A stretch of DNA of 22,632 bases from a virus: positions 1 through 22,632 of the IMG/VR virus record IMGVR_UViG_3300045107_000090; one strand, given 5' to 3'. Shown here piece after piece: positions 509 to 17,588 of this stretch. The notes beneath the pieces are model-generated. The model had not been told where the DNA came from, did not search any database, and saw only the letters and a list, made by a program, of their open reading frames with translations. Each line of letters begins with the position of its first letter. Positions within the stretch are counted from its first letter, which is position 1. A program made the translations under genes and the position numbers.

Positions 509-904
509 GTGGACACGATCGAGGTCGGATACGGCTATTCGGCTCGTTACGTGGTCACATTGCGTGATGGGTCGGGACGTGCTGTGACCGGCGTCTATGC
601 CGGCACCGAGACGCTTGGTGTTGTGATCGGCATCGGGGCGGGCGCCGAGCTGCCTGGTGTCCTGTCGACGGCCGAGTGGGCCGCGGTGACACGGGCGGCC
701 GACGGGCGGATCACGTCGGCCGTGGCCAATGCCTCCGGCGGCCCCGCCGGCACGATCCTGCTCACGATCGATGAGGCCGACATCGTGGCGTGCGGGGTAG
801 GCACTTTCGGCCTCACGATCGAGCTGACTGACGCGGGCCGCGTCTACGAGTGCTATCGCGCCAGCCTGCGTGTGAAGTGTCGGCCTGGTGGGAGCGGCTA
901 CTGA
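509..904 (+). CDS. Putative phage structural protein (131 aa)
   Basis: It starts with GTG at 509, immediately after the previous stop, and ends with TGA at 902-904. The sequence is mostly beta-type: alternating hydrophobic residues with many Gly/Thr turns (MDTIEVGYGYSARYVVTLRDG, a central Ala-rich part, then a C-terminal strand ending in KCRPGGSGY). There is no signal peptide or membrane segment. It resembles a beta-sandwich of the kind used in head decoration, fibre or baseplate wedge proteins, and it lies in the head-to-tail connector region. I do not recognise a named family. Its virion role is inferred from position only. Confidence 0.6.
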   Translation: MDTIEVGYGYSARYVVTLRDGSGRAVTGVYAGTETLGVVIGIGAGAELPGVLSTAEWAAVTRAADGRITSAVANASGGPAGTILLTIDEADIVACGVGTFGLTIELTDAGRVYECYRASLRVKCRPGGSGY

Positions 905-905
905 G

Positions 906-1319
906 ATGGCATGGCCCGACGACCTGCCCACCGATCGGCTCAAAGTCGGTCTCGCCCGGCTGACCACCCGGCTCGCCGGGTCGGCGGCGCAATCCGTGCT
1001 CTACCGCCGCGGCCCCGATGAGGTCCGCGTCCGGGCCACGCTCGGCTCTAAGCTGCTCCGTGTCGAGGACCTCGACGGCGGCGTCCGACACGAGTGGACC
1101 GACATGGACTTCTGCGTCCCGGCCGTCGACCTGGTGCTCTGCGGCGAGCGGGTGACGCCCGACCGGGGCGACGAGCTGACGGTCACCCTCGAGGACGGCT
1201 CCGAGGAGCGATACGAGGTGTTCCCGTACAACGGCGAGCCGGCTTGGCGATGGAGCGACCCGCACCGATCGATGGTGCGGATCCACGCCAAGCTGGTCGG
1301 CTCCGACAGGATCTGTTGA
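906..1319 (+). CDS. Putative head-closure (stopper-like) protein
   Basis: I choose the ATG at 906, one base after the upstream stop. A GTG 18 bases earlier (888) would only overlap the previous gene. The product is 137 aa and ends at TGA 1317-1319. It begins with a helix (TDRLKVGLARLTTRLAG). A beta-rich domain follows with strands VLYRRGPDEVRVRATLG, MDFCVPAVDLVL and DELTVTLEDGSEERYEVFP. It finishes with GEPAWRWSDPHRSMVRIHAKLVG. Size, fold impression and position just before the tail-terminator-like gene match head-closure proteins of siphophages (SPP1 gp16/HK97 gp9-like role), which seal the portal and dock the tail. The assignment rests on context and sequence character, not on a diagnostic motif. 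Confidence 0.55.
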   Translation: MAWPDDLPTDRLKVGLARLTTRLAGSAAQSVLYRRGPDEVRVRATLGSKLLRVEDLDGGVRHEWTDMDFCVPAVDLVLCGERVTPDRGDELTVTLEDGSEERYEVFPYNGEPAWRWSDPHRSMVRIHAKLVGSDRIC

Positions 1320-1323
1320 ATCC

Positions 1324-1785
1324 ATGCCGCTCGACGTCCATGCCTCGATCTGCCAGGCCGCGATCGACCTGCTCAACGCCGCGAGCCTGTCGATGGGACT
1401 GGTGGCCGAGCGGACCTATCTGCCGATCCTGACGCTGGCCGAGCTCGACTCGCTCAAGGTGCCGGTCGTCCCTCGCGACTGGTCGCTGACGCGGCTTTCT
1501 CGCCGCGACGACGACTGTGACTACGGGGTCGACGTGGGCGTCTTCCGCAAAATCGCCGACCTCGAGCCCGAGTCGATCGACCCGTTCATGCTGCTGGTTC
1601 AGGAAATCGCGAACCTGTTTCGAGCGGAGACGTCGATCGACTTCGGCGATCCCTATTCCGAGACCGGCCGTGCCCACCTCGTCGCGCTTGCGATCGACCC
1701 GATCTTCGACCGGACCTTGCTGGACGAGAAGCGGGTGTTCGCATCGGTCGTGAGCCTCACCTACCGCGTTGCCAGGGCCCGCTGA
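1324..1785 (+). CDS. Putative tail terminator / minor tail protein
   Basis: A 153-aa product starts at ATG 1324 and ends with TGA 1783-1785, which overlaps the next ATG (TGATG). The N-terminal helix (HASICQAAIDLLNAASL) is followed by AERTYLPILTLAELDSLKVPVVP, and then an acidic segment, GVDVGVFRKIADLEPESIDPFMLLVQEIANLF. This pattern of helix, strand with R-x-YLP, LxxLDSLKVxVVP, and helix around L..LVEEIA is one I associate with tail terminator or minor tail proteins of siphophages (lambda gpU-like role). These cap the tail tube and join it to the head. Position between the stopper-like and gp10-like genes fits. The fold should be checked by structure prediction. Confidence 0.6.
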   Translation: MPLDVHASICQAAIDLLNAASLSMGLVAERTYLPILTLAELDSLKVPVVPRDWSLTRLSRRDDDCDYGVDVGVFRKIADLEPESIDPFMLLVQEIANLFRAETSIDFGDPYSETGRAHLVALAIDPIFDRTLLDEKRVFASVVSLTYRVARAR

Positions 1786-2222
1786 TGCTGACGTTCAAGG
1801 CGGCGAAGTCGAACTTTTTCGACCGCGCGAAGGTGACGTCGGCCGTCGACCGGGCGACGCTCCGCGTGCTGTCGCGGTTCGGGGCGTTCGTCCGCACCCG
1901 GGCCCGGTCGAGCATCCGCAAGCGGCGCAGGCCGAGTGTCCCTGGCACGCCGCCCAGCTCACACACCGACCTGCTGAAGCGGTTCCTTTTCTTCTCCTAC
2001 GAGCCTGAGCGCAAGTCGGTCGTCATCGGCCCGGCGAAGCTCAACTCCGTCGTGGATCCCGACGCCCCTCCCGCCCTGGAGTATGGCGGGCGATCGACCG
2101 TCGAGGGGCGACGCGGCGGGCCCCGACGCCGCATTACCGTCCGCCCGCGCCCGTTCATGGGCCCGGCCTTGAAGGCCGAGCTGCCCGGCCTGCCCGCCAT
2201 GTGGCGGGACTCCGTTCGCTGA
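1785..2222 (+). CDS. HK97 gp10-like tail completion / neck protein
   Basis: The ATG at 1785 overlaps the previous stop by one base, indicating coupled translation. The product is 145 aa and strongly basic (RARSSIRKRRRPS). It carries the run PSVPGTPPSSHTDLLKRFLFFSYEP and a C-terminal RPFMGPALKAELPGL. The elements Arg-rich helix, PGxPP...HTDLLKR and RPFMGPAL are typical of the phage neck/tail-completion family often labelled HK97 gp10-like. These proteins sit at the head-tail interface. The order stopper, terminator, gp10-like, tail tube is classical. A 24-base gap then separates it from the major tail gene. Confidence 0.7.
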   Translation: MLTFKAAKSNFFDRAKVTSAVDRATLRVLSRFGAFVRTRARSSIRKRRRPSVPGTPPSSHTDLLKRFLFFSYEPERKSVVIGPAKLNSVVDPDAPPALEYGGRSTVEGRRGGPRRRITVRPRPFMGPALKAELPGLPAMWRDSVR

Positions 2223-2246
2223 TCCTAAACCCCGGAGGCTCCGCTC

Positions 2247-2726
2247 ATGGGCCTGAGACTCGGCCTCGAAGCCAAGCTCTACCGCAACTCGGGCACGCTG
2301 GGCTCGGCCTCGCCGACGCTCAACCCGATCGACAACTGCCGCGACCTGACGCTCAACCTCGAGAAGAACGAGGCAGATGTCACGACCCGCGGTGCCAACG
2401 GCTGGCGGCAACTCGTCGGCGTTCTCAAGGACGCGACGATCGAGTTCTCCATGATCAAGGATGGTGCCGACCCGGATTACATCGCGATCCGCGACGCATT
2501 TTATGCCTCGTCCGCCCCTGCCACACAGCTTGACATTTTCGTGATGTCGGCCGACGTGGACGAGAGCGACAGCGAGGGCATCCGAGCCGTTTGCATCGTG
2601 ACCGGCCTCACCGACAACCAGCCGCTCGAGGAAGCGCAGACGGTCGACGTTACGCTGCGGCCGACCTACTTCCCGGCCATGCCGCCGGCCGCCGTCGCGG
2701 GCACGACCTATGGGGCCTATGACTGA
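2247..2726 (+). CDS. Major tail tube protein
   Basis: A clear Shine-Dalgarno sequence (GGAGG at 2234-2238) precedes ATG 2247. This is the first gene of the tail block with its own strong site, as expected for an abundant protein. The product is 159 aa: MGLRLGLEAKLYRNSGT, then DNCRDLTLNLEKNEADVTTRG, GWRQLVGVLKDATIEFSMIKDG, FYASSAPATQLDIFVMSAD, and VTGLTDNQPLEEAQTVDVTLRPTY. The series of beta strands with the 'LEEAQTVDVTLRPTY' ending is typical of tube proteins that stack as hexameric rings. The two chaperone frames and the tape measure follow directly. The TGA overlaps the ATG of the chaperone gene. Confidence 0.75.
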   Translation: MGLRLGLEAKLYRNSGTLGSASPTLNPIDNCRDLTLNLEKNEADVTTRGANGWRQLVGVLKDATIEFSMIKDGADPDYIAIRDAFYASSAPATQLDIFVMSADVDESDSEGIRAVCIVTGLTDNQPLEEAQTVDVTLRPTYFPAMPPAAVAGTTYGAYD

Positions 2727-3223
2727 TGCGACGAGCATTCACCGACGCCGCCGGCCGCGAGTGGTCGGTCTCGATCAGCGTCACCGCGATCAAGCGGGTC
2801 CGGGCGTCGCTCGGCGTCGACCTCTACAAGCTGCTCGACGACGGCTTCGCGGGGCTCTCGTCGCTGCTCGGCGACCCGGTGTCGCTCGTCGACGTGATCT
2901 ATGTCCTCTGCCGAGGCCAGGCCGACGCGGCGGGCGTCTCCGATGAGGCGTTCGGAGAGGCGATGGCCGGCGACGCGCTGGAATCCGCCACGTCGGCATT
3001 CTGTGGGGCCCTGGTCGATTTTTTCCCGAATCCCCGGGCGCGGGCGGCGATGGAACGCCTGCTGGCGACCGGGGAGACGCTGCGGGAGAAGGTGCTGGAT
3101 CGGGCGGAGGCGGAGCTGGCGAGTCTGGACGCCGACCGCCTGGCCGACGCCTTGAGCCGATCGTCTGGGAGCTCGCCGGAATCCTCGGACTCGATCCCGG
3201 CCCCTTCACCCTCCGCGAGCTAG
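2726..3223 (+). CDS. Tail assembly chaperone, G-like product (zero frame)
   Basis: The ATG at 2726 overlaps the tube stop (TGATG). The 165-aa zero-frame product has an N-terminal domain of about 95 residues (FTDAAGREWSVSISVTAIKRV, LGDPVSLVDVIYVLC, ESATSAFCGALVDFF). A charged helix (ARAAMERLLATGETLREKVLDRAEAELASLDADRLADAL) and a Ser/Pro tail follow. Position between the tube and tape-measure genes and the overlapping second frame match lambda gpG-type chaperones, which hold the tape measure during tail assembly and are absent from the virion. At codons 98-100 (GAT TTT TTC) the gene carries a slippery heptamer, so only part of the ribosomes should complete this form. Confidence 0.75.
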   Translation: MRRAFTDAAGREWSVSISVTAIKRVRASLGVDLYKLLDDGFAGLSSLLGDPVSLVDVIYVLCRGQADAAGVSDEAFGEAMAGDALESATSAFCGALVDFFPNPRARAAMERLLATGETLREKVLDRAEAELASLDADRLADALSRSSGSSPESSDSIPAPSPSAS

Positions 3224-3474
3224 CCTGGATGGCGGAGGGTCGGTCACGCGCGGCGTGGGATCACACGGCCTACGTTGTCGCCACGCTCGCCAACGTCCAC
3301 CGCGACCCCAAGAAGCGGCCACGCCCCTACGAGCCGGAGGACTTCCACCCCCTCCGCCGCCGGGCCAGAAGGACGCCGCCGACGGCGAAGGTCACCGTCG
3401 GCGAACTGAGGGCGATTCTCGGCTTGAAACCACGTCCCCGCGAGCGGCGGACGCCGCCGGAGACGAAGGGCTAG
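2726..3474 (+). CDS. Tail assembly chaperone, GT-like fusion by predicted -1 frameshift
   Basis: After codon 100 (TTC, 3023-3025) a -1 slip continues in the frame starting at 3025 and stays open to TAG 3472-3474, predicting a 249-aa fusion. After the slip the protein has a Gly-rich linker (residues about 105-135). A compact T-like domain follows with VWELAGILGLDPGPFTLRELAWMAEG, then AAWDHTAYVVATLANVHRDPKKRP and a basic tail with TVGELRAILGLKPRP. The LGLDPGPFTLRELAWM segment lies upstream of the only ATG in this frame (3229), which shows that the conserved domain is not a separate 81-aa gene. Lambda-like gpGT fusions recruit the tube protein to the tape measure. The final stop shares a CTAG with the antisense lipoprotein gene. 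Confidence 0.72.
3019..3025 (+). promoter_or_regulatory. Predicted -1 programmed ribosomal frameshift site (T TTT TTC)
   Basis: The heptamer TTTTTTC is in the correct phase for simultaneous slippage (zero frame GAT TTT TTC). Five bases downstream a perfect 7-bp stem can form between TCCCCGG (3031-3037) and CCGGGGA (3069-3075). Its GC-rich loop may pair further. Heptamer, 5-base spacer and GC-rich stem are the usual parts of a stimulated -1 site. The -1 frame is open for 149 codons afterwards. Confidence 0.75.
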
Positions 3475-3794
3475 TTGCCCGGTGAGGCCTTGGCCCGGGC
3501 GATCAGCTCCGCGGCCGTCATGCCGTGGTAGGGATGCAACTCGGATGCCGTCGTGGGCATCCGCTCAGCGTCGCGGCGAGCGGCGGACTGGAACGCCCGC
3601 GGGACGGCCGACCGCATCGTGAGCATGACCACTGATCGCATCAGATCGGCTCGCTCCGGCTCGGGCAGCTCGCGGGCCATCTGCGTGAGCGAGTCCGTGA
3701 TCGATCTGTCGCTGGTCGCGTCCAGCGTCGGCACTTCGCCGCATCCCGCCGCGAGCGCCGCGGCGACGATCATCCCGATCCGTCTCGCCCTCAT
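3471..3794 (-). CDS. Lipoprotein, DUF6694-like; probable moron
   Basis: I choose the ATG at 3794 because GGAGGTGA (complement of 3801-3807 region) sits five bases before it. An ATG 21 bases upstream would overlap that site. The 107-aa product starts MRARRIGMIVAAALAAGCGEV: a basic n-region, hydrophobic core and an LAAGC lipobox, so the mature protein should be lipid-anchored at Cys18. The mature part runs TLDATSDRSITDSLTQMARELPEPERADLM, then helices, and ends with a GMTAAELIARAKA motif. This layout (C..P.LD.SS...F..SL..M...LP...R and a terminal GMTA-E-I-A-A) resembles the DUF6694 lipoprotein family. It is the only minus-strand gene in the tail operon, suggesting lysogenic expression. Superinfection exclusion is possible but unproven. 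Confidence 0.7.
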   Translation of the reverse strand: MRARRIGMIVAAALAAGCGEVPTLDATSDRSITDSLTQMARELPEPERADLMRSVVMLTMRSAVPRAFQSAARRDAERMPTTASELHPYHGMTAAELIARAKASPGN

Positions 3795-3832
3795 GGTTTT
3801 CACCTCCATCATCACTCTAGGAGCCCGAGCAC

Positions 3833-5581
3833 GTGGCCGCTAGAGCCTCCGGCATCAGGGCGGGTCGGGCCTATGTCGAGGTTGGAGCGGATGACGCTCC
3901 GTTCCGCGCCAGAATCGAGGCAGTCGAGGCGCGCGTCAAGGCGTTTGGCATGTCGGTGTCGGCCATCGGCGGCAAGCTCCTCTCCCTTGGAAAAGCTGCC
4001 GGACTTCAGATCCTCGGCGGCGCGGGGCTGGCCAAGCTATTCGCCGACGCCGGCTCCGAGTTGAACGACATGAGCGCGAGGACTGGTCTATCGGTGGAGG
4101 CTCTCTCGCAGCTCGGCTACGCCGCCAAGCAGACCGGCACCGACCTGGGCACGGTCGAGGCCGCGGTCCGCAAGATGCAGAAGTCGCTCGTCGGGGCTGC
4201 GAACGGGAACTTCGAGGCCCAAGCGGCCTTGAGCCTTTTGGGTCTCTCCGCCGAGAAGTTGCTGAGGCTCTCGCCGGATGAGCAGTTTCAGGCGATCGCC
4301 AAGGCGATGGCGGCGATCCCGGACCCGACGATGAAAGCCGCACTGGCGATGCAGCTTTTCGGCAAGGGCGGCACCGCCATCCTGCCGCTGATCGACGACT
4401 TCGATGCCCTGACCGGCAAGGCCCGCGACCTCGGGCTCGTGATGTCCTCCGAGGATGCCGCCGCGGCGGACGCTCTCGGCGACGCGATTGACACCGTTTC
4501 GGCCTCGCTGCGGCGAGCGGTCAACGTCATCGGCGGGGCGATGGCACCAGCCCTGACATTCGTGGCCGACAGGATTTCCGAGACGGTGAAGGTGGCAGCC
4601 GACTGGATCGCTGCAAACCGTGGGCTGGTCCAGATCCTCGCGGCCGTGGTCCCTGGGGCCGTCGCTCTCGGTGCCGCGATGGTCGCGCTTGGCCCGGCGA
4701 TCTCCGCTGTCGGCATCGCGATCGGAGCATTGGCCAGCCCCATGGTTGTGGTCATCGGTTTGGCAGCCGGGCTCGGCAGCGTGCTGGTGCAGACCAGCGG
4801 CGTCGCCGCGGAAGCCTTCGGCTGGTTGAGTGAGCGTCTGGGTGAGCTCCTGGCCGACGCCCGCTCCGCCTTTCAGGGCATCGCCGACGCCTTGGCCGCC
4901 GGCGACATCGGGCTCGCGGCAAAGGTGCTCTGGTCCGAGCTGAAGCTCGAATGGGTCAAGGGTGTCTCGTTTCTACGGAAGATCTGGCTCGATTTCTCTT
5001 CCGCGTTCCGCGACGTGTTCGCCGATGCCGTGCGGGGCATCGCTGGGATCATCATCGACCTGGGCGCGAAACTGCAGGAAGTCCTCGCCCGCGTCAACAT
5101 CTTCGACCAAGGCAACCTCGACGCGAAGCTCGCCCAGATCGAGCAGGACCGCCGCGTCGCCCAGGGGGCCCTCGATGACGAGTTGCAGGCACGCCGCGAT
5201 GCCACGCTCGATGCCTATGGAAAGGAGCGGGAGCAGCTCGAGAAAGAAATCTCGGACGCTCGGGCGCGATTGGCTCAGGTCCGCGGCGAGGCGAGGGACG
5301 CGGCGGGGCGGGCATTTGGCGATCCGCCCGGTGGCAAGCCGGGTACTCCCGGTGGCAAGCCGGGTACTCCCGGTGTCGATCTGCCCGACCTCGACGCCGC
5401 GATCGGCGAGGCCCGCCGCAAGGTTGACGTTGCCGGCAGTTTCTCCGCGTCGGCGCTCCGCGGCCTCGGCGCTGGCAGTTCGGTCGCCAACGACCAGCTC
5501 AAGGAGCAGCAGAAGCAGACCAAGCTGATCGAGCGGCTCAACGAGCGGCTGCGTAACGCCCGCGTGCTGATGGAGGACTGA
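3833..5581 (+). CDS. Tail tape measure protein
   Basis: GTG 3833 has TAGGAG (3818-3823) nine bases upstream. The 582-aa product follows the G/GT chaperones, as tape measures do. It has an N-terminal helical region (FRARIEAVEARVKAFGMSV), then SELNDMSARTGLSVEALSQLGYAAKQTG, a common tape-measure motif (residues about 75-102). A long hydrophobic stretch follows at about 265-320 (VVPGAVALGAAMVALGPAI...). A coiled-coil of about residues 430-490 is rich in E/R/K/Q, then comes a Gly-Pro hinge with two exact 21-bp repeats. The C-terminus reads AGSFSASALRGLGAGSS and ends in a charged helix. It sets tail length and probably helps DNA cross the host envelope. At about 1.5 angstrom per residue it predicts a tail of at most about 87 nm. 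Confidence 0.87.
   Translation: MAARASGIRAGRAYVEVGADDAPFRARIEAVEARVKAFGMSVSAIGGKLLSLGKAAGLQILGGAGLAKLFADAGSELNDMSARTGLSVEALSQLGYAAKQTGTDLGTVEAAVRKMQKSLVGAANGNFEAQAALSLLGLSAEKLLRLSPDEQFQAIAKAMAAIPDPTMKAALAMQLFGKGGTAILPLIDDFDALTGKARDLGLVMSSEDAAAADALGDAIDTVSASLRRAVNVIGGAMAPALTFVADRISETVKVAADWIAANRGLVQILAAVVPGAVALGAAMVALGPAISAVGIAIGALASPMVVVIGLAAGLGSVLVQTSGVAAEAFGWLSERLGELLADARSAFQGIADALAAGDIGLAAKVLWSELKLEWVKGVSFLRKIWLDFSSAFRDVFADAVRGIAGIIIDLGAKLQEVLARVNIFDQGNLDAKLAQIEQDRRVAQGALDDELQARRDATLDAYGKEREQLEKEISDARARLAQVRGEARDAAGRAFGDPPGGKPGTPGGKPGTPGVDLPDLDAAIGEARRKVDVAGSFSASALRGLGAGSSVANDQLKEQQKQTKLIERLNERLRNARVLMED
5330..5371 (+). repeat. Two perfect 21-bp tandem repeats in the tape-measure gene
   Basis: The unit GGTGGCAAGCCGGGTACTCC plus C occurs at 5330-5350 and 5351-5371 without mismatch and encodes GGKPGTP twice. 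It lies in the flexible Gly/Pro segment between the coiled-coil and the C-terminal domain, so copy-number change would stay in frame and alter hinge length. Confidence 0.9.
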
Positions 5582-5587
5582 CGCCCC

Positions 5588-6373
5588 GTGGCGACGATCA
5601 TCAGCGAGAACTATCAATCGCGCACGTTCTCGATCGGCTCGCAGTCCGCACGCGAGCTGATCTACGACGTGTTCGACGATGACAACTCCGAGGAGAACGT
5701 CGAGACGGTCCTCGCGGCGACGGCGCCGGAGGTCTACTACGGGCTGGTGCGTGAGTCGGTCTCCGGCGAGCCGGTCGGCGCCGGCTGGTGGAAGGGGTAC
5801 GTCCGCTACATCCGGCTCGACGCCGGCGAGTTCAGTTTCGACACGTCCGGCGGCAATATCCACATCACGCAGAGCCGCTCGACGATCGCCTCGTACGCCC
5901 CGCCCGGCTTCACCGCCCCGGACTTCCAGGGCGCCATCGGCGTCTCCGACGACCGCGTCGAGGGCGTCGACATTCCCGGCCGCGCGTACGTGTTCGCCGA
6001 GACCTACCGGATGCCGGCGGGCATCGTGACCGGCGCGTATCGCCGCAACCTGTTTCTCCTCACCGGACGGTACAACAGCGCTCCGTTCAAGGGCTTTGCC
6101 TATGGCGAGTGCCTCCTGCTCGGTGTCTCGGGCAGCCAGCGGCAGGATGAGGACTGGTCGCTGACGTTCCGATTCGCCGGCTCGCCGAACGAGACGAACA
6201 TCCAGATCGGCGACATTACCGTGGCGTCGAAGTACGGGTGGGATTACCTCTGGGTCCGCTACGCGGACTTCGAGGACTCGCTGGCCTACGCGCTGGTCAA
6301 GCGGCCGGTCGCCGCGTACGTCGAGCGCGTGCTCGAGCCGGGTGATATGTCCTTGCTCGGCATCGGGATCTAG
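5588..6373 (+). CDS. Putative distal tail / tail tip protein (261 aa)
   Basis: GTG 5588 follows the tape-measure stop by six bases, with GGAGG at 5572-5576 upstream. The 261-aa product opens MATIISENYQSRTFSIGSQSARELIYDVFDDD. The body is beta-rich with many aromatic residues, e.g. VGAGWWKGYVRYIRLDAGEFSFDTSGGN. The ending is WDYLWVRYADFEDS...VKRPVAAYVERVLEPGDMSLLGIGI. The conserved-looking ending and the place right after the tape measure are features I associate with a frequent, uncharacterised gene in planctomycete phages. In siphophages this slot usually holds the distal tail or hub protein. Virion tail-tip function is therefore inferred from position. No enzymatic motif is visible. Confidence 0.65.
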   Translation: MATIISENYQSRTFSIGSQSARELIYDVFDDDNSEENVETVLAATAPEVYYGLVRESVSGEPVGAGWWKGYVRYIRLDAGEFSFDTSGGNIHITQSRSTIASYAPPGFTAPDFQGAIGVSDDRVEGVDIPGRAYVFAETYRMPAGIVTGAYRRNLFLLTGRYNSAPFKGFAYGECLLLGVSGSQRQDEDWSLTFRFAGSPNETNIQIGDITVASKYGWDYLWVRYADFEDSLAYALVKRPVAAYVERVLEPGDMSLLGIGI

Positions 6374-6375
6374 TC

Positions 6376-7170
6376 ATGCCCGGCGACCCATTCCGCCGCT
6401 ACCAGCCTGGCGAGCCGCCGCGGTTCTCGGCCGTGCAGTGGAACGCCTGGACCGACGCCGCCAAGGCGCATCGCGACCGAGAGCTGGCCCGCGTCGCCGG
6501 CACGCCGACCACGTGGCGGCATCCGTCGATCGTGCGCGTCACGAACGGAACCGGCGGCGACCTGGCCCGGTTCTCCGTCGTCGGCCTGGGCGATCCGATC
6601 TTCACGCCTGACGACTCCGTCGAGGCCTTCACTCGCGATGTGACCTTCCGGGCCGAGACGCCCACGATCGATCATGTCGGGCGGTTCGGGATCCTTCTGG
6701 AGCCGTGCCTCGACGGACGGGTCGCGAAGGCCCAGGTCGACGGCGTCTGCCAGGTCGTGCTTGACCACGTCGAGGAGTGGCACCGCCGGGCCGACATCAC
6801 GCCCGGCGACTCGACCAAGCTGACGAGCAGGCCCTACGGCTTCGCGGAGGTCCTCTGGACGGAGCCGGGCGTCTACTACGGCGATCAGTGGGCGATCGTT
6901 CGTCTGGGGGACGGATACCCCGACGACGGCTTTCCGGTCCTCACCACGTCGACGATCACGGCCTGGAACAAGACGACGAAGGCATACGGCTCCGGGACGT
7001 GCCGGCTGCCCCTGCTCGACGTCGACGCGGGGACGCTCGAATACGGCACGGTCGACGTGGAGATCCTCAACGCGCACCCCGACGCCGTGCCCGACGACCG
7101 GATCACAACGGCGAAGTGGTGGGCGAGCCGGCTCTGGGTCTGGAGCCCAAGCTGCTCGTCGGCGGTCTGA
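6376..7170 (+). CDS. Putative tail-tip structural protein (264 aa)
   Basis: ATG 6376 comes two bases after the previous stop. The product opens with FRRYQPGEPPRFSAVQWNAWTDAAKAHRDREL, an N-terminal helical segment. A beta domain follows (VRVTNGTGGDLARFSVVGLGDPIF, HVGRFGILLEPC, VDGVCQVVLDHVEEW), then a C-terminal part with DQWAIVRLGDGYPDD and AWNKTTKAYGSGTCRLPLLDVD. The motif 'V.N.TG.DL.RF.VVGLG.PI' recurs in hypothetical structural proteins of planctomycete phages as I remember them. Its place among tail-tip genes supports a virion role such as a fibre adaptor. It ends SPSCSSAV. No hydrolase or lectin motif is recognisable. Confidence 0.6.
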   Translation: MPGDPFRRYQPGEPPRFSAVQWNAWTDAAKAHRDRELARVAGTPTTWRHPSIVRVTNGTGGDLARFSVVGLGDPIFTPDDSVEAFTRDVTFRAETPTIDHVGRFGILLEPCLDGRVAKAQVDGVCQVVLDHVEEWHRRADITPGDSTKLTSRPYGFAEVLWTEPGVYYGDQWAIVRLGDGYPDDGFPVLTTSTITAWNKTTKAYGSGTCRLPLLDVDAGTLEYGTVDVEILNAHPDAVPDDRITTAKWWASRLWVWSPSCSSAV

Positions 7171-7173
7171 CCG

Positions 7174-7842
7174 ATGGCCCACCAGTTCACGGCCGGGTCG
7201 TGCTGCGGCTGCTCGCCGTGCGACTGCGCCGGGTGCGATCCATGGCCCGAGTGCGCCGTGCTGGCGTTCGACTATTACTGGGCCTCATCGCTCCCCGGTC
7301 AGATCACCGGGCCCTGCGAGGACCGGACCGCGTCGATCACCATGAATCGCGGGGCCGATTGCCGGCTGCTGGGAATCCTCAACGCGCCCGGGACCGCGTT
7401 CGGGTTCGCTCGGCTCGGCCCCTATTCGAGCTGCGCCGGCTTTCTCCAGGACTCGTTTCGAGGCAGTTACACATTCTCGCTCTACTGCGAGGATGGCGAG
7501 CCACGGCTGCGAGTGACGCAGGCGACCAACCCGTTCTCGCAGGACGCCAACAACAGCCAGACATTTCAGTATCTCTCGCTGGAGTCGGTCTGGTCGCTCG
7601 CCGGGACATGCGACCCGCTGGACCTGACGCTCGACTCACTGCTTTCCTGCACGGCGAGATGGCGGGCGCGCAACAAGCCGACATCTCAATGGACCTATTA
7701 CTCGGCCGACTGCTCGACGCTCGACTACTACCTGCTGACCCCCGGGGCCTATGGCTGCGAGACGGAGTGCGTTGACAATGGGTCGCCCGCCGGCCTGTCG
7801 CGGCCGTTCAACCTCAGCGGCCTCTCCATCGTCGCGTGCTAA
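7174..7842 (+). CDS. Cysteine-rich protein of unknown function (222 aa)
   Basis: ATG 7174 starts three bases after the previous TGA. The 222-aa product contains 17 cysteines, seven of them in residues 9-27 (CC, C, C, C, C, C in the segment SCCGCSPCDCAGCDPWPEC). The remainder has regularly spaced single cysteines and many aromatic and Ser/Thr residues. There is no signal peptide. The ending is LSGLSIVAC. The cysteine cluster could bind metal, form disulfides in the virion, or be modified. It is immediately upstream of a radical SAM gene, and the stop of this gene overlaps the longest reading of that gene. A tail-tip protein is the default inference from operon position. An enzyme substrate is a speculative alternative. 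Confidence 0.6.
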   Translation: MAHQFTAGSCCGCSPCDCAGCDPWPECAVLAFDYYWASSLPGQITGPCEDRTASITMNRGADCRLLGILNAPGTAFGFARLGPYSSCAGFLQDSFRGSYTFSLYCEDGEPRLRVTQATNPFSQDANNSQTFQYLSLESVWSLAGTCDPLDLTLDSLLSCTARWRARNKPTSQWTYYSADCSTLDYYLLTPGAYGCETECVDNGSPAGLSRPFNLSGLSIVAC

Positions 7843-7865
7843 CTCCGGGGAGGTCCGCGACAGTG

Positions 7866-9191
7866 ATGGCACCCCAACATGATGGACGGCCTATGACTCG
7901 TGATGAGTCGTGCCGGTCTCTGCCGGACGGTCCATGCATTCGCGGGCTCGACAACTGCCCGGGCCGGCGGCGAAGGGCGCTCTGTCAGGTCGCCGACGAT
8001 CCGAGATACGACGCGATCTTCGCCCGCGCGACCGCCGGACCAGCCCGCCTCGAACACCCCGACGCGGCGGCGTGGCGGGCCAGGCGTTCGCTCAACGCCC
8101 GCGCGCGGAGCTGCCGGCACCGCGAGCCGTGCGGCTGCGGGATCGCCGACTGCGCCAAGCTCGGGCGCAAGGTGACCTATGAGGAGTGCCATGCCTGCCC
8201 CGATCTGCCGCCGACCCCCGACCTGCAGGAGATGGACATGGGCGGCCTGCCTGTCCGCATGGTGATCCCCTCCGAGCGGCGGCCCGTCTGGCGCGGCGGA
8301 ATCATCCAGGTCCACGTCACCCGGGCCTGCGATCTCGCGTGCGTCCACTGCACTCAGGGGTCCAATCTCGCGGGCAAGCCGGTCGTCATGTCGGCCGACG
8401 AGTTCGAGACGGCCGTCAAGAGCCTCGCCGGCTACTGGGGCGTCGTCGGGATCTTCGGCGGAAACCCGGCGATCCATCCCCGGTTCGAGACGCTCTGCGA
8501 GATACTCCGGGCCCACGTCCCGTTCGAGCAGCGTGGGCTCTGGTGCAACCATCCCCGCGGCAAGGGGGCCGTCTGTCGGATCACGTTCAATCCCGCCGTC
8601 TCCAACCTCAACGTCCACCTCTCGGCCGAGGCCGCCGCCGAGTTCCGCCGCGACTGGCCGGAGTCGGCCGCCGTTCTGAAGGGCGAGGCGGAGGACTCCG
8701 TCCACGGGCCGCCGTTCGTGGCGATGCGCGACGTGGTCGCCGACGAGGCCGAGCGGTGGAGGATGATCGGCGATTGCGACGTCAACAAGTACTGGTCGGC
8801 CCTGGTCGGCGTCGTGCCCGGCCGCGGGCTCCGCGCCTACCTCTGCGAGATCATGTACACGCAGGCAGCACTCCACGCGACCGCCGACGACGCCGAGGAC
8901 TGGCCCGACCTGGGGCTGCCGGTCGAGCCCGGCTGGTGGACGCGACCGCTGGCCGAGTTTGCCGGGCAGGTCCGGCACCACTGCCATCGCTGCGGCATCC
9001 CGCTCCGCCGGCCCGGCCAGCCCGCCGTCGCGGGCGAGGTCGAGGAGTTCAGCCAGACGCATCGGGCGATCGCGAGGCTCAAGGTCCGGGAGCGCCGGGT
9101 CGATCTGGTCGAGTCGATCGGCACAATCGCCCGTCCCGACCGCCCCGCGACCGAGTATCTGCCGGGGACCACGCCGAGGGCGAAGGCGTGA
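7866..9191 (+). CDS. Radical SAM enzyme with extra cysteine clusters
   Basis: I choose ATG 7866 (441 aa); GGGGAGG at 7847-7853 lies upstream, and GTG 7863 is almost equally possible. Residues 155-162 read CDLACVHC, the CX3CX2C motif that ligates the radical SAM [4Fe-4S] cluster. GGNP (about 198-201) stands where GGEP binds SAM. The N-terminal 115 residues carry ten cysteines in two groups (16, 24, 31, 40 and 83, 89, 91, 96, 108, 111). Later ones occur at 304, 327, 373 and 376, the last two as HHCHRC. These could hold auxiliary clusters or zinc, as in SPASM-like enzymes. Its stop overlaps the GTG of the methyltransferase gene, so the two are co-translated. The substrate is unknown; a phage or host surface molecule or tail protein is inferred from context. 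Confidence 0.8.
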   Translation: MAPQHDGRPMTRDESCRSLPDGPCIRGLDNCPGRRRRALCQVADDPRYDAIFARATAGPARLEHPDAAAWRARRSLNARARSCRHREPCGCGIADCAKLGRKVTYEECHACPDLPPTPDLQEMDMGGLPVRMVIPSERRPVWRGGIIQVHVTRACDLACVHCTQGSNLAGKPVVMSADEFETAVKSLAGYWGVVGIFGGNPAIHPRFETLCEILRAHVPFEQRGLWCNHPRGKGAVCRITFNPAVSNLNVHLSAEAAAEFRRDWPESAAVLKGEAEDSVHGPPFVAMRDVVADEAERWRMIGDCDVNKYWSALVGVVPGRGLRAYLCEIMYTQAALHATADDAEDWPDLGLPVEPGWWTRPLAEFAGQVRHHCHRCGIPLRRPGQPAVAGEVEEFSQTHRAIARLKVRERRVDLVESIGTIARPDRPATEYLPGTTPRAKA

Positions 9192-10459
9192 CCGACCCCC
9201 GCGTCGCCCATCGCCACGTCGTCGCCGCCGACGGCGACCGGCTGACCTACGTCTGCGGCTGCGTCAACGCGATCGACCCGTGGTCCGGCTGGCTGCGGTC
9301 GGAGTCGAAGTGCGCCGCCCATCGGGCCGAGTCGCGGGAGGCCGGCACGCTGGGGCGGCGGTACTACCGCGACATCGGCTCGCTCGACCGCGAGGCGCCG
9401 GCCCGCTACGTCGGCGAGCTCGTCGAGGCCCTCGGCCCGCTGCCGACGGGGCCGGGACTGGCCGTCGAGGTCGGCTGCGGCGCCAGCCCCTACGCCGGGG
9501 CGATCCGCGACGCCGGCTGGCAGTACGTCGGGATCGACCGCTCCCGGTGGGGCTGCGGCTGGACGGCGAAGCGGTGGGGCGTGGAGGCCGAGCCGGTCGC
9601 GTGGGAGGACTACGAGCCGCCCCGGCCGCCGGGGCTGATCCTCTGCGCCCACGCCGTCGAGCACATGGCCGAGGGCCCGTTCCAGCTCGGCCGCATGGCC
9701 GTCCGGCTCGCGCCCGGGGGCGAGCTCTGGATCGTCGTGCCCGACGACGAGGACCCGCTCAACCCGGACCATCTCTGGTTCCCCAACGCCGACGCCCTTC
9801 GCGGCCGGTTGGAGGCGTGGGGGCTCGAGGTCCTCCGGCTCGCGTCGATCCGCCGGATCGCCCGGGAGAGTTTCCTGTACGCGAGGGCGAGGCGTCCGGC
9901 TGACGCGGATCCGCACGCCCTGCCGGTCGTGTGGCCGGGGCTCGCGGGGCGATCCTGGATGTCGCGGCCGGAGCTGGCGTGGCTGATCGGCCGGCTGCCG
10001 GAGTCGGGCGCGTTCGTCGAGGTCGGCACGGCCTCCGGCGTCTCGGCGGCCCGGATCGCCGACGCGCGGCCGAGGCTGGCGATCGTCTGCGTCGACACCT
10101 TCGCCGACGCCGACGCGACGCACATGGCCGAGTCGGAGCGCGACCGACGGGGCAACTGGGCCGCCAACCGCCGGCCGAACATGCGGCTCCACGTCGGCGA
10201 CCTGGCGAGCCTCGCCGCCGCCGAGCCGGGACTGCGGGCCGACGCGATCCTCGTCGACGCCTGGCACGACGAGTCCTCCGTCGCCGCCGACCTGGCCGTT
10301 GCCGACGCGATGCTCTCCGAGGGCGGCGTGATCTTCGCCCACGACTACGCCGACCCGGCGCACCCCGGCGTGCGGTCGGCCGTCGATCGCTTCTGCCGCG
10401 ACTCCGGATACCGAGCGGACGGCGACCGCTTCACGCTGCGGTCGCTGCGGAGGATCTGA
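9188..10459 (+). CDS. Protein with two class I SAM-dependent methyltransferase domains
   Basis: GTG 9188 overlaps the stop of the radical SAM gene (GTGA). The same frame is open far upstream, but that part is antisense-like shadow of the upstream gene. The 423-aa product has a short N-terminal Cys part (CGC at 23-25, KCAAH at 41-45). Domain 1 (about 88-235) has motif I AVEVGCGASP (92-101), acidic D117 in GIDRS, HAVEHM (155-160) and LAPGGELWIVVPDDED. Domain 2 (about 258-423) has motif I FVEVGTASG (276-284), D303 in VCVDTF, ILVDAWHDESS and SEGGVIFAHDY, like Methyltransf_24-type enzymes. Both domains keep SAM-binding signatures. The tandem arrangement and its link to radical SAM and glycosyltransferase genes suggest modification of a glycan or surface component. 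The substrates are not visible. Confidence 0.82.
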   Translation: MTDPRVAHRHVVAADGDRLTYVCGCVNAIDPWSGWLRSESKCAAHRAESREAGTLGRRYYRDIGSLDREAPARYVGELVEALGPLPTGPGLAVEVGCGASPYAGAIRDAGWQYVGIDRSRWGCGWTAKRWGVEAEPVAWEDYEPPRPPGLILCAHAVEHMAEGPFQLGRMAVRLAPGGELWIVVPDDEDPLNPDHLWFPNADALRGRLEAWGLEVLRLASIRRIARESFLYARARRPADADPHALPVVWPGLAGRSWMSRPELAWLIGRLPESGAFVEVGTASGVSAARIADARPRLAIVCVDTFADADATHMAESERDRRGNWAANRRPNMRLHVGDLASLAAAEPGLRADAILVDAWHDESSVAADLAVADAMLSEGGVIFAHDYADPAHPGVRSAVDRFCRDSGYRADGDRFTLRSLRRI

Positions 10460-10461
10460 GC

Positions 10462-11265
10462 GTGCCGGCGATCCGCGGTCTGACCGTCTCCGTCGGCCAA
10501 TGGTACGCCCGGACCCTCGAGGTCTGCCTTGTCCGCAACATGCGGCACCTGACGCGGTGCCTGGTGGTGACCGCGCCCGGCGACCCGGCCGTCGCCGTCG
10601 CGCGATCGGTGCCGAACGTCGAGGTCCTGGAGACGGACGCCTTCACTCGCCACGGTGCCCGGTTCAACAAGGGCCTGGCGATGGAAGAGGGCTTTGAGCG
10701 TCTCGGCCGGTCGGGATGGCTCGCGATCTTCGACGCCGACATCGTCTGGCCCGATGCGATCCCGCTCGACCGGCTCCGGTCCCACGCCCTGCATGGCTGT
10801 CGCCGCCGCGTGCTCGACGATCCGGCGGCATGGCGGCCGGACATCGACGCCCGCCGGCTCCCGCTGATCAACGACAAGGGGCCGATCGGGTTCACCCAGA
10901 TCTTCCACGCCGACGCGCCGTACCTTGCGGGAAAACGGCCCTGGTACGACGTCAGCTTCGCCCATGCCGGCGGCGGCGACGCCTACTTCCTCTCGCTCTT
11001 CCCGCGGGAGCGGTGGGTGACGCTGCCGGTCGAGTCGATCCACCTGGGGCCCGTCGACCGGCACTGGTTCGGCACTGACGCCGAGGCGAAGGAGTTGATG
11101 GCGGCGTTCGTCAAGCGCAACAACTGGCGACGCGCGATCAACGGCCTGCCGCCCGGCGCTGGGGCGTCCGTGGGCGAGATTCGGGAGCGTGTCGAGGTGC
11201 CCGGCTACGCACCGTCGACCTACGAGCTGCCCTTCGTGAAGCGGGCCCGAGAACAAACGAGGTAG
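10462..11265 (+). CDS. Glycosyltransferase-like protein (GT-A type)
   Basis: GTG 10462 is preceded by GGAGGA (10449-10454) and follows the methyltransferase stop by two bases. The upstream extension of this frame is a shadow. The product is 267 aa: AIRGLTVSVGQWYARTLEVCL, a Rossmann-like start, then ARFNKGLAMEEGFERLG and GWLAIFDADIVWPDAI with a DAD motif at 91-93, the metal- and sugar-nucleotide-binding signature of GT-A enzymes. Later segments include TQIFHADAPYL and GGGDAYFLSLFPRERWVTLPVESIHLG. The family is that of small cytosolic transferases found in phage and capsule loci. It ends the enzyme cassette. I infer sugar transfer to a tail protein, host glycan or lipid; the acceptor is unknown. 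Confidence 0.75.
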   Translation: MPAIRGLTVSVGQWYARTLEVCLVRNMRHLTRCLVVTAPGDPAVAVARSVPNVEVLETDAFTRHGARFNKGLAMEEGFERLGRSGWLAIFDADIVWPDAIPLDRLRSHALHGCRRRVLDDPAAWRPDIDARRLPLINDKGPIGFTQIFHADAPYLAGKRPWYDVSFAHAGGGDAYFLSLFPRERWVTLPVESIHLGPVDRHWFGTDAEAKELMAAFVKRNNWRRAINGLPPGAGASVGEIRERVEVPGYAPSTYELPFVKRAREQTR

Positions 11266-11799
11266 ATGATGGCGACGACGATCTCCGGCTCGCTCTCGGC
11301 CAAGCTGCAGGCAATCTTCACCGGCGACTCCGGCTTCTACTCCGGCACGGGCCGCGACATCGCCAAGACGCTCGGGCTGGCGATTGCCGCCGGTACCGGG
11401 GCCGACCAGTGCGACCGCTGCGGCCTGATCTACAAGGCACTGTCATCCTCGACGCCCGACACCATCGACCTCAAGAGCCTTACCGACCCCAACGGCGTCG
11501 CGTTCACCGACCTGGCTCGCGTGCGGCTGCTCTGGCTCTGGAACGAGTCGACGACAGACGCGGCGAGCGTCGCGGTCGGACCCGACACCACGAACGGGTG
11601 GACCAACGGCATCAACGCCAATGCCAACGGCGAGGGCGTCATCCTCCGGGGCTCGACGGCGAGTTCGAGCGGGATGCTGATCCTCGTCGCGCCGGCGACC
11701 ACGGGGCTGGTCGTCGCGTCCAACAACAAGGTGATCCGGCTGACGCCCTCGGCCCACGCGCAGACGATCCGCGGGATCGTGCTGGGCTGCTCGGCCTGA
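11266..11799 (+). CDS. Putative virion structural protein (177 aa)
   Basis: ATG 11266 directly follows the previous TAG; an ATG at 11269 is equally possible. The 177-aa product is beta-rich with many Thr/Ser/Gly/Ala: ATTISGSLSAKLQAIF, then DTIDLKSLTDPNGVAFTDLARVRLLWLWNESTTDAASVAVG, GEGVILRGSTASSSGMLILVAPATTG and a final IRGIVLGCSA. The 'DL..LTDP.G....LARV..L...N' pattern is one I associate with uncharacterised decoration or tail-associated proteins of planctomycete phages. Its return to structural character after four cargo genes suggests the cargo was inserted between structural genes. It is the last gene of the plus-strand operon. Confidence 0.6.
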   Translation: MMATTISGSLSAKLQAIFTGDSGFYSGTGRDIAKTLGLAIAAGTGADQCDRCGLIYKALSSSTPDTIDLKSLTDPNGVAFTDLARVRLLWLWNESTTDAASVAVGPDTTNGWTNGINANANGEGVILRGSTASSSGMLILVAPATTGLVVASNNKVIRLTPSAHAQTIRGIVLGCSA

Positions 11800-12384: not shown

Positions 12385-13296
12385 TCACCCTGCGGGCGAG
12401 TCGGCGTCGTCACGTTCCGCCGCGTGAGTCTCCTCGACCCGCGTCACCCCCTTCCCCGGTGTGTCCGCGCGGACCACGTTGCCCGCGACGTCGAGCCTGT
12501 ACGGCACGTTCGGCTCGATCCCGTCCTCGCCGACGTAGGCGACCACCAGCCGGCGACGGCCCGCGCCGACGTCCCATCTCGCCAAGCACAAGACGCCCCA
12601 GTCGCCGGCGGTGGCCTGACCACAGTCGCCGGCGGTGGCCTGACCCCGGTAGCCGGCGGTGGCCTGACCCCGGTAGCCGGCGGTGGCCTGACCACAGTCG
12701 CCGGCGGTGGCCTGACCCCAGTCGCGGGCGGTGGCCTGACCACAGTCGCCGGCGGTGGCCTGACCCCAGTCGCCGACGGTGGCCTGACCCCAGTCGCCGA
12801 CGGTGGCATGACCCCCGTAGCCGGCGGTGGCCTGACCCCAGTCGCCGACGGTGGCATGACCCCCGTAGCCGGCCACGACGGAGGCGCCGATCACGGCTTT
12901 CCCGGCGGCGACGTTGGCGATCAGATAGTCCGTCGCGCCCTTGCGGTCGCCACAGTAGACGACTTCGCCGCGCGGGAATTTCACCTTGCCGCCGAGGTCG
13001 ATCACGTCGGCCGCGACGACCGACACGACCAGCCATTTGGCGTCCGGCGACCAGTCGCCGAGGTTGCCGTCGCCCTCTCCCCAGAGCCACCCGTGCAGGC
13101 CGTTGCCACACTCCGGCTCCGGCGACCAGTCGGGCGCCTCGACCGGCCCGCTCTCGGGCCAGCGGAAGCCGCCGTGACTCGTCATGTCCGCGTTGCAGGT
13201 GCGGAGCACCAGCACGCGGGCGGGCTCGGGCTTCCTCACCCGCGGCTTCGCCGGCCGCGCGGCGGCTGCCCGTGGCTTGCGATCGGGCTCGGTCAT
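12385..13296 (-). CDS. DUF7666-like protein with about 12 octapeptide repeats (beta-solenoid candidate)
   Basis: ATG 13296 overlaps the upstream stop (ATGA). The 303-aa product has a Lys/Pro/Arg-rich start (1-27). An N-terminal domain (about 28-125) follows with VLVLRTCNADMTSHGGFRWP, CGNGLHGWLWGEGD, WLVVSVVAADVIDLG and KVKFPRGEVVYCGD. Residues 142-237 form about 12 octads of the type AGDWGQAT/AGYGGHAT. A C-terminal domain (VLCLARWDVGAGRRRLVVAYVGEDGIE) ends it. Domains of this kind followed by octad repeats are known in many phage and bacterial proteins (DUF7666 by my recall). The octads resemble the AGYGST-T units of ice nucleation proteins and probably form a solenoid. It is the last gene of the minus-strand operon, next to attP. 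The function is unknown. Confidence 0.72.
   Translation of the reverse strand: MTEPDRKPRAAAARPAKPRVRKPEPARVLVLRTCNADMTSHGGFRWPESGPVEAPDWSPEPECGNGLHGWLWGEGDGNLGDWSPDAKWLVVSVVAADVIDLGGKVKFPRGEVVYCGDRKGATDYLIANVAAGKAVIGASVVAGYGGHATVGDWGQATAGYGGHATVGDWGQATVGDWGQATAGDCGQATARDWGQATAGDCGQATAGYRGQATAGYRGQATAGDCGQATAGDWGVLCLARWDVGAGRRRLVVAYVGEDGIEPNVPYRLDVAGNVVRADTPGKGVTRVEETHAAERDDADSPAG
12586..12873 (-). repeat. Tandem 24-bp repeats encoding octapeptides
   Basis: About 12 units of 24 bp, of the form GCC-GGC/GGG-GAC/TAC-TGG/TGT/GGG/CGG-GGT-CAG/CAC-GCC-ACC, lie head to tail inside the coding sequence. Differences fall mainly at octad positions 3-4, giving DW, DC, YG and YR variants, while GQAT or GHAT is nearly constant. 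The neighbouring codons show that units have been duplicated in blocks: two AGYRGQAT units are adjacent, and a YG/DW pair occurs twice. Confidence 0.9.
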
Positions 13297-16912: not shown

Positions 16913-17403
16913 CACGCCCTCCCCGCGAGCCGTTCGGCCCGACGCTGGTCCAGCCACCAGAGCCCGATCTCGATCGCGTCGGCGATGTCGCCGCCCTTGT
17001 CCGAGCCCTGGACGGCGCGGTAGGCGTCGCACCAGAGGCCCAGCGAGCGGGCGCGGTCGCGCTTCGTCCGGCCGGCCGTCCACTCCCGCTCGTTGACGAC
17101 GCGTGGCTCGCGGGCGTGCATCTGCACGGTCCGCCAGACCGCCCCCTGCGCCATGCCCAGCGCGGCGAGGCTCGATGCCCGCACCTTCCGGTACGTGAGG
17201 CCGGTGGTGACCTCGATGAGGACCTCGTCGCACAGGTGGCGGTCCAGCAGCTCGCCGACGCCGTCGCAGATCCTGGTGACGCGGGACCAGAATGGGCGGT
17301 GCTCGCCGGGCCGGATCACGCCCAGGTCATGCACCGTCGCGGACCCGTCGAGGATCGCCCAGCCGCACGCCGTCGAGCTGGGGTCGAGCGCGAGCACCCT
17401 CAT
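16912..17403 (-). CDS. RuvC-like Holliday junction resolvase
   Basis: A 163-aa product from ATG 17403, overlapping the csrA stop (ATGA). It has the RNase H-like fold signature of RuvC: D7 in VLALDPSSTACGWAI, E64 in VLIEVTTG, and D139 and D142 in KGGDIADAIEIGLWW. These are the four acidic residues that coordinate the metal ions. The length agrees with cellular RuvC (about 170 aa). In phages such enzymes resolve branched replication intermediates before packaging. It shares an operon with a primase, a helicase and an ssDNA-binding-like protein. RuvC-like phage enzymes of this type often have relaxed sequence specificity; that cannot be seen here. Confidence 0.8.
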   Translation of the reverse strand: MRVLALDPSSTACGWAILDGSATVHDLGVIRPGEHRPFWSRVTRICDGVGELLDRHLCDEVLIEVTTGLTYRKVRASSLAALGMAQGAVWRTVQMHAREPRVVNEREWTAGRTKRDRARSLGLWCDAYRAVQGSDKGGDIADAIEIGLWWLDQRRAERLAGRA

Positions 17404-17588
17404 GACTCGCCCCCCGCCTCGCCCTTGCGGCGTCGTTCGGAGACCTCGGAGCGATCGATCGTGATCTCCCGGGGCGCGGTGAAGCCGAGCTTGACCTTGC
17501 GCTGGGTCCAGTTGACCTCGACGACCTCGACCAGCACCTTGCCGTCGATCACCACCGCCTCGCCGATGCGTCGATTCAGGACGAGCAT
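17400..17588 (-). CDS. csrA: Carbon storage regulator CsrA
   Basis: A 62-aa product from ATG 17588. MLVLNRRIGEAVVIDGKVLVEVVEVNWTQRKVKLGFTAPREITIDRSEV matches the CsrA fold across its length: start MLVLxR, the R7/G9/E10 segment, and APREITIDRSEV, equivalent to APKEVSVHREEI of E. coli with the RNA-contacting Arg kept. CsrA is a dimeric RNA-binding protein that recognises GGA in leaders and represses or activates translation. Here it sits between the DUF5131-like gene (13-base overlap) and the ruvC-like gene (ATGA overlap), all inside a phage early operon. The insert WTQRK replaces the usual KGNQ turn. A role in reprogramming host or phage mRNA translation is inferred. Confidence 0.9.
   Translation of the reverse strand: MLVLNRRIGEAVVIDGKVLVEVVEVNWTQRKVKLGFTAPREITIDRSEVSERRRKGEAGGES

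Follow-up and report, generated by a model that had tools for sequence, protein, structure and literature searches.

A stretch of viral DNA, the IMG/VR record IMGVR_UViG_3300045107_000090 (22,632 bases; the whole record was analysed and is called the window below), encodes a cassette of three adjacent enzymes behind its tail genes: a radical S-adenosylmethionine (SAM) protein, a fused double methyltransferase and a GT-A glycosyltransferase. The radical SAM protein, the methyltransferase domains and the glycosyltransferase recur in dozens of viral contigs in a similar order, and these comparisons indicate that the enzymes form one unit in which the methyltransferases are optional. We read this unit as a phage glycan-tailoring cassette, responsible for the transfer, oxidation and optional methylation of sugars, most likely on a tail-tip protein, and give this reading about an even chance of being correct. 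In more general terms, the cassette is probably a shared and undescribed means by which phages attach unusual sugars to their tails or, possibly, to the host surface.

The linkage between the radical SAM protein and the glycosyltransferase was examined in 2.9 million viral contigs, which were scanned with an alignment of the radical SAM family and, separately, with an alignment of the glycosyltransferase family. The radical SAM scan found 49 loci, and the independent glycosyltransferase scan found 71. We examined 48 of the radical SAM loci, and the 40 with at least 3 kb of sequence downstream were considered testable. In 36 of the 40, a glycosyltransferase of the same family is encoded on the same strand no more than 3 kb further downstream; the testable loci without it are L011 and L014, plus L021 and L023, which are identical to each other. 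Conversely, the radical SAM protein is present in 43 of the 71 glycosyltransferase loci at an expectation value (E) below 1e-40, and in 48 of them at E<1e-5. Because the two scans are independent and each family is rare, this co-occurrence goes beyond chance. The two enzymes are encoded by one open reading frame (ORF) in L012, and the radical SAM protein is fused to one of the two methyltransferase domains (MT24) in L011. Outside the viral contigs, a contig from a Proteobacteria metagenome-assembled genome (L121, 9854-12055) encodes a relative of the radical SAM protein fused to a GT2/GtrB-like glycosyltransferase domain.

Pairwise distances between radical SAM proteins correlate with those between their glycosyltransferases (Mantel r=0.49, 0/2000 permutations, 39 non-redundant loci), whereas radical SAM and MT24 distances are uncorrelated (r=0.10, 286/2000 permutations). 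We note that a distance correlation alone could stem from shared genome descent; what is informative is that MT24 behaves differently. Within 3 kb of the radical SAM gene, MT24 is found in 24 of the 40 loci and the other domain, MT23, in 5; other loci have a single one of these domains, have both in separate genes, or lack them altogether. The original prediction, which was made from the window sequence alone, had joined four genes into one pathway by counting a cysteine-rich gene upstream of the radical SAM gene. Its idea of a single pathway survives for the enzymes, given the co-occurrence across very diverse viruses, the fusions and the correlated distances, with the double methyltransferase as a non-essential part and the cysteine-rich gene outside. 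The gene order that recurs in related phages is likewise that of the enzymes, and the cysteine-rich gene is no part of it.

The radical SAM protein matches PF04055 (E=1.8e-8, 35.2 bits against a cut-off of 29.5) and contains the expected CX3CX2C motif at C155/C159/C162. It consists of a variable cysteine-rich N-terminal extension (residues 1-130), a radical SAM core and a four-cysteine auxiliary domain. Among 44 aligned sequences, whose members are 39-64% identical to the window protein, seven cysteines are invariant in 44/44: those of CX3CX2C, C304-X21/22-C327 and, after a gap of 38-72, C373-X2-C376. The four-cysteine arrangement looks like a twitch domain with one fully ligated putative auxiliary cluster, an arrangement seen in BtrN (PMC9012708, PMC6231123). 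The glycine spacing is mostly C-X14-G-X6-C, and the published first half of the SPASM/twitch pattern is CX9-15GX4C (PMC6231123). In the AlphaFold model, confidence is high from residue ~130 onwards and mostly low in the extension, which is absent from most family members, as these begin close to the core. The best fold matches of the model in the PDB (Foldseek) are four chains of SpeY (5e-7 to 3e-6, probability 1.00), and further matches include BtrN (6.5e-4, rank 6, probability 1.00), SkfB (rank 7) and MoaA. A PDB sequence search with the protein returned just a QueE fragment (E=0.047) and generic matches.

The two methyltransferase motifs that had been noted in one ORF correspond to two separate domains, PF13489 (8.5e-14, MT23-type, residues 73-217) and PF13578 (4.4e-14, MT24-type, residues 277-387). 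These domains are separate genes in L005, and by this comparison the window gene appears to be a fusion of the two. Matches of the MT23 profile include many small-molecule methyltransferases, among them TcaB9 and D-mycarose 3-C-methyltransferase, which methylate sugar carbons. The best PDB match of the MT24 profile is 6g7d (5e-8), which we take to be the mycobacterial mannoside methyltransferase MeT1. The biology of MeT1 has been described (PMC9883506). The methyl acceptor of the cassette may thus be a sugar. An N-terminal C-x-C...C-x2-H motif is kept in 7/7 aligned MT23 proteins (window 9188-9330). The extension of the window radical SAM protein has a zinc-ribbon-like motif (8112-8198), and a similar cysteine motif lies in a separate small ORF (9814) upstream of the radical SAM gene of L002. 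Loci in which cysteine motifs were noted also include L004, L010, L018 and L026. It seems that short cysteine-containing modules move between the enzymes of these phages.

The glycosyltransferase is not named by the domain libraries, with no Pfam or NCBIfam match up to E=1, and no PDB sequence match is better than E=0.024. The assignment as a GT-A enzyme with a DAD motif is nevertheless borne out by the alignment and the model. The motif is D91-A92-D93, and D91, D93, D173, H194, W202 and other residues are invariant in 60 aligned sequences. The model has a predicted local distance difference test (pLDDT) value of 93.9 and a GT-A fold, and the nearest structures are chondroitin synthases and SunS.

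These assignments suggest a possible reaction sequence. The GT-A enzyme would transfer a sugar, most likely to a tail-tip protein or to a glycan on that protein. The 5'-deoxyadenosyl radical of the radical SAM enzyme would abstract hydrogen from a carbinol carbon, either while the sugar is on the donor or after its transfer. With the electron passed to the four-cysteine auxiliary cluster, the product would be a keto-sugar or a similarly oxidised sugar. The radical SAM reaction would accordingly be a dehydrogenation of a hydroxyl to a ketone, as the fold of the model suggests. Where present, the two methyltransferase domains would methylate the sugar.

The cassette and its surroundings in the window are as follows.

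888-1319, plus strand: head-tail joining protein (PF25138).
2247-2726, plus strand: major tail protein.
3833-5581, plus strand: tape measure protein.
6376-7170, plus strand: tail-tip-like protein of the cluster c47 family, context and not an enzyme; it resembles the N-terminal part of ORFs in L002 and L003.
7174-7842, plus strand: cysteine-rich protein of 222 amino acids with 17 cysteines.
About 7847-7853, plus strand: GGGGAGG, likely ribosome-binding site of the radical SAM gene, as read from the sequence.
7866-9191, plus strand: radical SAM protein of 441 amino acids (PF04055).
8112-8198, plus strand: zinc-ribbon-like cysteine motif in the N-terminal extension of the radical SAM protein, by pattern match.
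9188-10459, plus strand: fused double methyltransferase (PF13489 and PF13578).
10462-11265, plus strand: GT-A glycosyltransferase with a DAD metal motif, by alignment and model.
11266-11799, plus strand: small phage protein of phrog_22694, a family without known function (E=1.5e-8).

The enzyme genes (7866-11265) are flanked by tail-tip genes and the phrog_22694 gene. From 888 to 7170 the plus strand encodes, in order, the head-tail joining protein, the major tail protein, a tail-assembly gene, the tape measure and two tail-tip genes; with three of these proteins recognised, the tail-operon context claimed upstream of the enzymes is confirmed. Relatives of the tape measure among cultured phages are distant, and their hosts are mixed. 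For the radical SAM gene, the most likely start is ATG 7866 (or GTG 7863), behind the GGGGAGG site, and 20-23 bases therefore separate this gene from the cysteine-rich one. The tight coupling described for the block does not extend to this junction and is seen at the remaining ones from 7170 to 11266 (3, -4, 2 and 0 bases), including the GTGA overlap of the radical SAM and methyltransferase genes at 9188-9191. No RNA elements, tRNAs, promoters or terminators able to explain the block were found in the window.

The minus strand encodes an integrase, a RuvC-like resolvase, CsrA and a primase/helicase-like protein, and the window may be temperate because an integrase is present. The CsrA homologue (17400-17588, minus strand; PF02599, E=3.9e-15), a host-type RNA-binding regulator in a phage, adjoins the RuvC-like gene. 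Part of a long ORF at 17576-18350 (minus strand) resembles the phage protein Gp37/Gp68 (DUF5131; CVKISPGCAHCY), as recognised by eye only. A DUF7666 protein at 12385-13296 (minus strand) contains a run of near-identical short repeats of the GQATAG/GDCGQATAG type. On the opposite strand within the tail operon lies a lipoprotein-like gene (3471-3815, minus strand; DUF6694, E=5e-8), which has a distant counterpart in the same place in L002 (5060-4818) and is possibly a superinfection-exclusion or surface gene.

The cysteine-rich gene (7174-7842) had been counted as a member of the enzyme set, and this claim is not upheld. Its product matches no Pfam or NCBIfam family and no significant PHROG, and it has no relative in the viral contigs scanned. 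In L002 (8474-9715) and L003 (8171-9649), the N-terminal part of the ORF before the radical SAM gene is 39-46% identical over ~180 amino acids to window 6376-7170, and the C-terminal half is cysteine-rich (14 and 35 cysteines, respectively, in the whole ORF). Window 6376-7170 and the cysteine-rich gene are thus probably the split counterpart of the single tail protein of L002 and L003, a reading by position and composition. The cysteine-rich protein is probably a variable tail protein, and its gene stands outside the enzyme cassette. As a substrate or a member of the enzyme set it was rejected, given its lack of relatives and its structural counterpart in L002 and L003.

The position of the cassette bears on the target of the modification. 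The cassette lies 1.6-7.6 kb after large genes of tape-measure size that belong to four separate clusters, of which c8 and c38 are recognised tape measures, while c14 and c34 count as tape measures solely because of their size and position. The large gene before the cassette is a recognised tape measure in L005 and encodes a tail-fibre protein in L011. None of the cassette products contains a hydrophobic stretch strong enough to span a membrane. This, together with a place behind tail genes in dissimilar phages, makes a tail-tip protein the likeliest acceptor, and the final target would be the virion rather than the host surface. The most specific form of this proposal is that a virus-restricted pair of radical SAM protein and glycosyltransferase, undescribed in cells or cultured phages, puts oxidised (keto-) sugars on tail-tip proteins across many unrelated tail types; we put this forward tentatively and consider it somewhat doubtful.

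Many loci add glycosyltransferase-like genes (c1 and c2, by sequence reading only, and c7, by Pfam), and some add an FkbM methyltransferase or a weak sulfotransferase match. A UDP-glucose/GDP-mannose dehydrogenase gene, a nucleotide-sugar supply gene in a phage, stands beside the cassette in L047 (7398-8366) and L043. In L049 (11270-11983) and L044, a gene between those of the radical SAM protein and the glycosyltransferase resembles, by eye, a 3'-phosphoadenosine-5'-phosphosulfate (PAPS)-reductase-type protein, possibly pointing to sulfur chemistry on the glycan. Mucin-like tail-region proteins with very long Thr/Ser or poly-Ser stretches are encoded in L018 (5431-7320), L010 (4423-7446) and L035 (230-1885), upstream of the cassette, and Ser/Thr reach up to 95% in 40 residues of these proteins. 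Long Ser/Thr runs upstream of the cassette, which would suit O-glycosylation, are found in L010, L018 and L035-L038. As proof of O-glycosylation these proteins were set aside, being striking in a few loci, not general, and circumstantial only.

Several observations weigh against a cassette that tailors tail glycans. The tail protein next to the cassette in the window is not strikingly Ser/Thr-rich. The radical SAM protein is missing from 23 of the 71 glycosyltransferase loci, some of which are short contigs. The fold matches of the radical SAM model are moderate, with TM-scores of 0.51-0.55 by target and a root-mean-square deviation of 5-6 Å over ~270 columns, and the profile built from its 44 sequences does not hit the chains of SpeY or BtrN at any value up to E=10. 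Because of this last result, we describe the protein, from its model, as one that appears to work like a twitch dehydrogenase, and do not file it as a member of the BtrN family. Finally, the authors of a study on pelagimyophages interpreted comparable gene sets as modifying the O-chain of the host (PMC7029224).

That last point leads to the main rival, in which the same enzymes act on a host cell-surface glycan, such as the O-chain or capsule, and thereby change the receptor and block competing phages. It was proposed for the glycosyltransferases and sugar genes in the pelagimyophage host-recognition region (PMC7029224), and the integrase of the window, with the possible temperate lifestyle, would suit it. 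Against it, the cassette encodes no membrane protein, no flippase or polymerase was recognised, and the cassette comes after tail genes in several tail lineages, a place for which one expects late expression. We consider a host-surface target unlikely, though it deserves serious attention.

The 17-cysteine protein encoded directly upstream of the radical SAM gene, together with the presence of SkfB, a twitch sactisynthase, among the fold matches and an N-terminal extension that could be a binding domain, would fit a maturase that cross-links or otherwise alters the neighbouring cysteine-rich tail protein, in the way that twitch or SPASM maturases act on cysteine-rich peptides. Most relatives of the radical SAM protein, however, are unaccompanied by such a protein and lack the extension, and their constant partner is a glycosyltransferase. 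A conserved precursor peptide, a trait of sactisynthases and other maturases of ribosomally synthesized and post-translationally modified peptides, was not seen, in that the radical SAM loci share no cysteine-rich partner gene. As regards the N-terminal recognition element of such maturases, the observations are that most members start near the core and that the window extension is modelled mostly with low confidence. Peptide maturation is improbable on this evidence.

Phage glycosyltransferases are known to glycosylate DNA, and the MT24 domain matches part of phrog_2675, which is annotated as a DNA methyltransferase (E=1.2e-8). Yet a role of the enzymes in making a glycosylated or oxidised base for the protection of phage DNA is very improbable: neither methyltransferase domain shows a DPPY-type or PCQ DNA-methyltransferase motif, the structurally characterised enzymes related to these domains methylate small molecules and sugars, no gene for a base hydroxylase or hydroxymethylase was recognised beside the cassette, and the position is a tail operon. 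Viperin-like nucleotide chemistry against the host, or another role in defence or counter-defence, is hardly credible and was rejected, as the weak pVip profile match (E=0.0064) spans the generic core alone (profile positions 2-64 of 257), the mad2 match of the MT24 domain is also weak and generic, the four-cysteine auxiliary domain conserved in 44/44 is not part of viperin as known, and the glycosyltransferase is the constant partner. The tailoring of a tail glycan remains our preferred reading.

Searches of 50,697 annotated phage records found no homologue of the window radical SAM protein and no full-length member of its family; the radical SAM protein of L046 as a query gave a single partial match of 26% in a Synechococcus phage. 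The glycosyltransferase has no relative in these records. In 84,980 cellular genomes, a scan that depends on short peptide patterns found one distant relative of the radical SAM protein, a GT2 fusion. The radical SAM family is thus known only from uncultivated viruses: cellular genomes hardly contain it, and the annotated phage records searched do not contain it at all. No paper describing the virus-restricted core of radical SAM protein and glycosyltransferase was found in the open-licence literature. Phage radical SAM genes are usually listed as unexplained auxiliary genes. The family described here has a constant enzymatic partner, a reaction proposed from its fold and a recurrent place beside tail genes, which together make a specific test possible, namely whether phage tails carry self-made oxidised or methylated sugars. 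If they do, this would matter for how phages recognise hosts and escape the loss of a receptor, and for the range of chemistry open to viruses.

Among known systems, the twitch radical SAM dehydrogenases SpeY (7WZX/7WZV/7X0B) and BtrN (4M7T), enzymes of a type that turns a hydroxyl into a ketone, have in common with the window radical SAM protein the core fold and the C-terminal domain with a four-cysteine auxiliary cluster. BtrN oxidises a cyclitol hydroxyl, and its auxiliary cluster has four cysteine ligands (PMC9012708). Unlike these enzymes, with which it has no detected sequence-level similarity, the window protein is virus-restricted, linked to a glycosyltransferase and encoded outside an antibiotic cluster. 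The window glycosyltransferase has a GT-A fold and a DxD-type motif in common with chondroitin synthases and the S-glycosyltransferase SunS, at 9-19% identity. The Gtr serotype-conversion cluster has a membrane flippase and a membrane glycosyltransferase, whereas the window products have no transmembrane-like stretch. Radical SAM cassettes and glycosyltransferases were reported in the host-recognition region of pelagimyophages (PMC7029224), so a modification set inside a tail operon is only partly as unusual as first thought. There, as in the window, genes of both kinds stand together beside tail-fibre genes; they are described just as a gene cassette in a variable region, and their radical SAM proteins may belong to another family than that of the window. 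The glycosylation of mycobacteriophage virions (Che8 gp110, Corndog gp38) is likened to the cassette by description, not by sequence, and PMC12363180 mentions no radical SAM or methyltransferase partner for it. What it has in common with our proposal is a phage-encoded glycosyltransferase that acts on the phage's own virion proteins, in that case the capsid and the tail tube.

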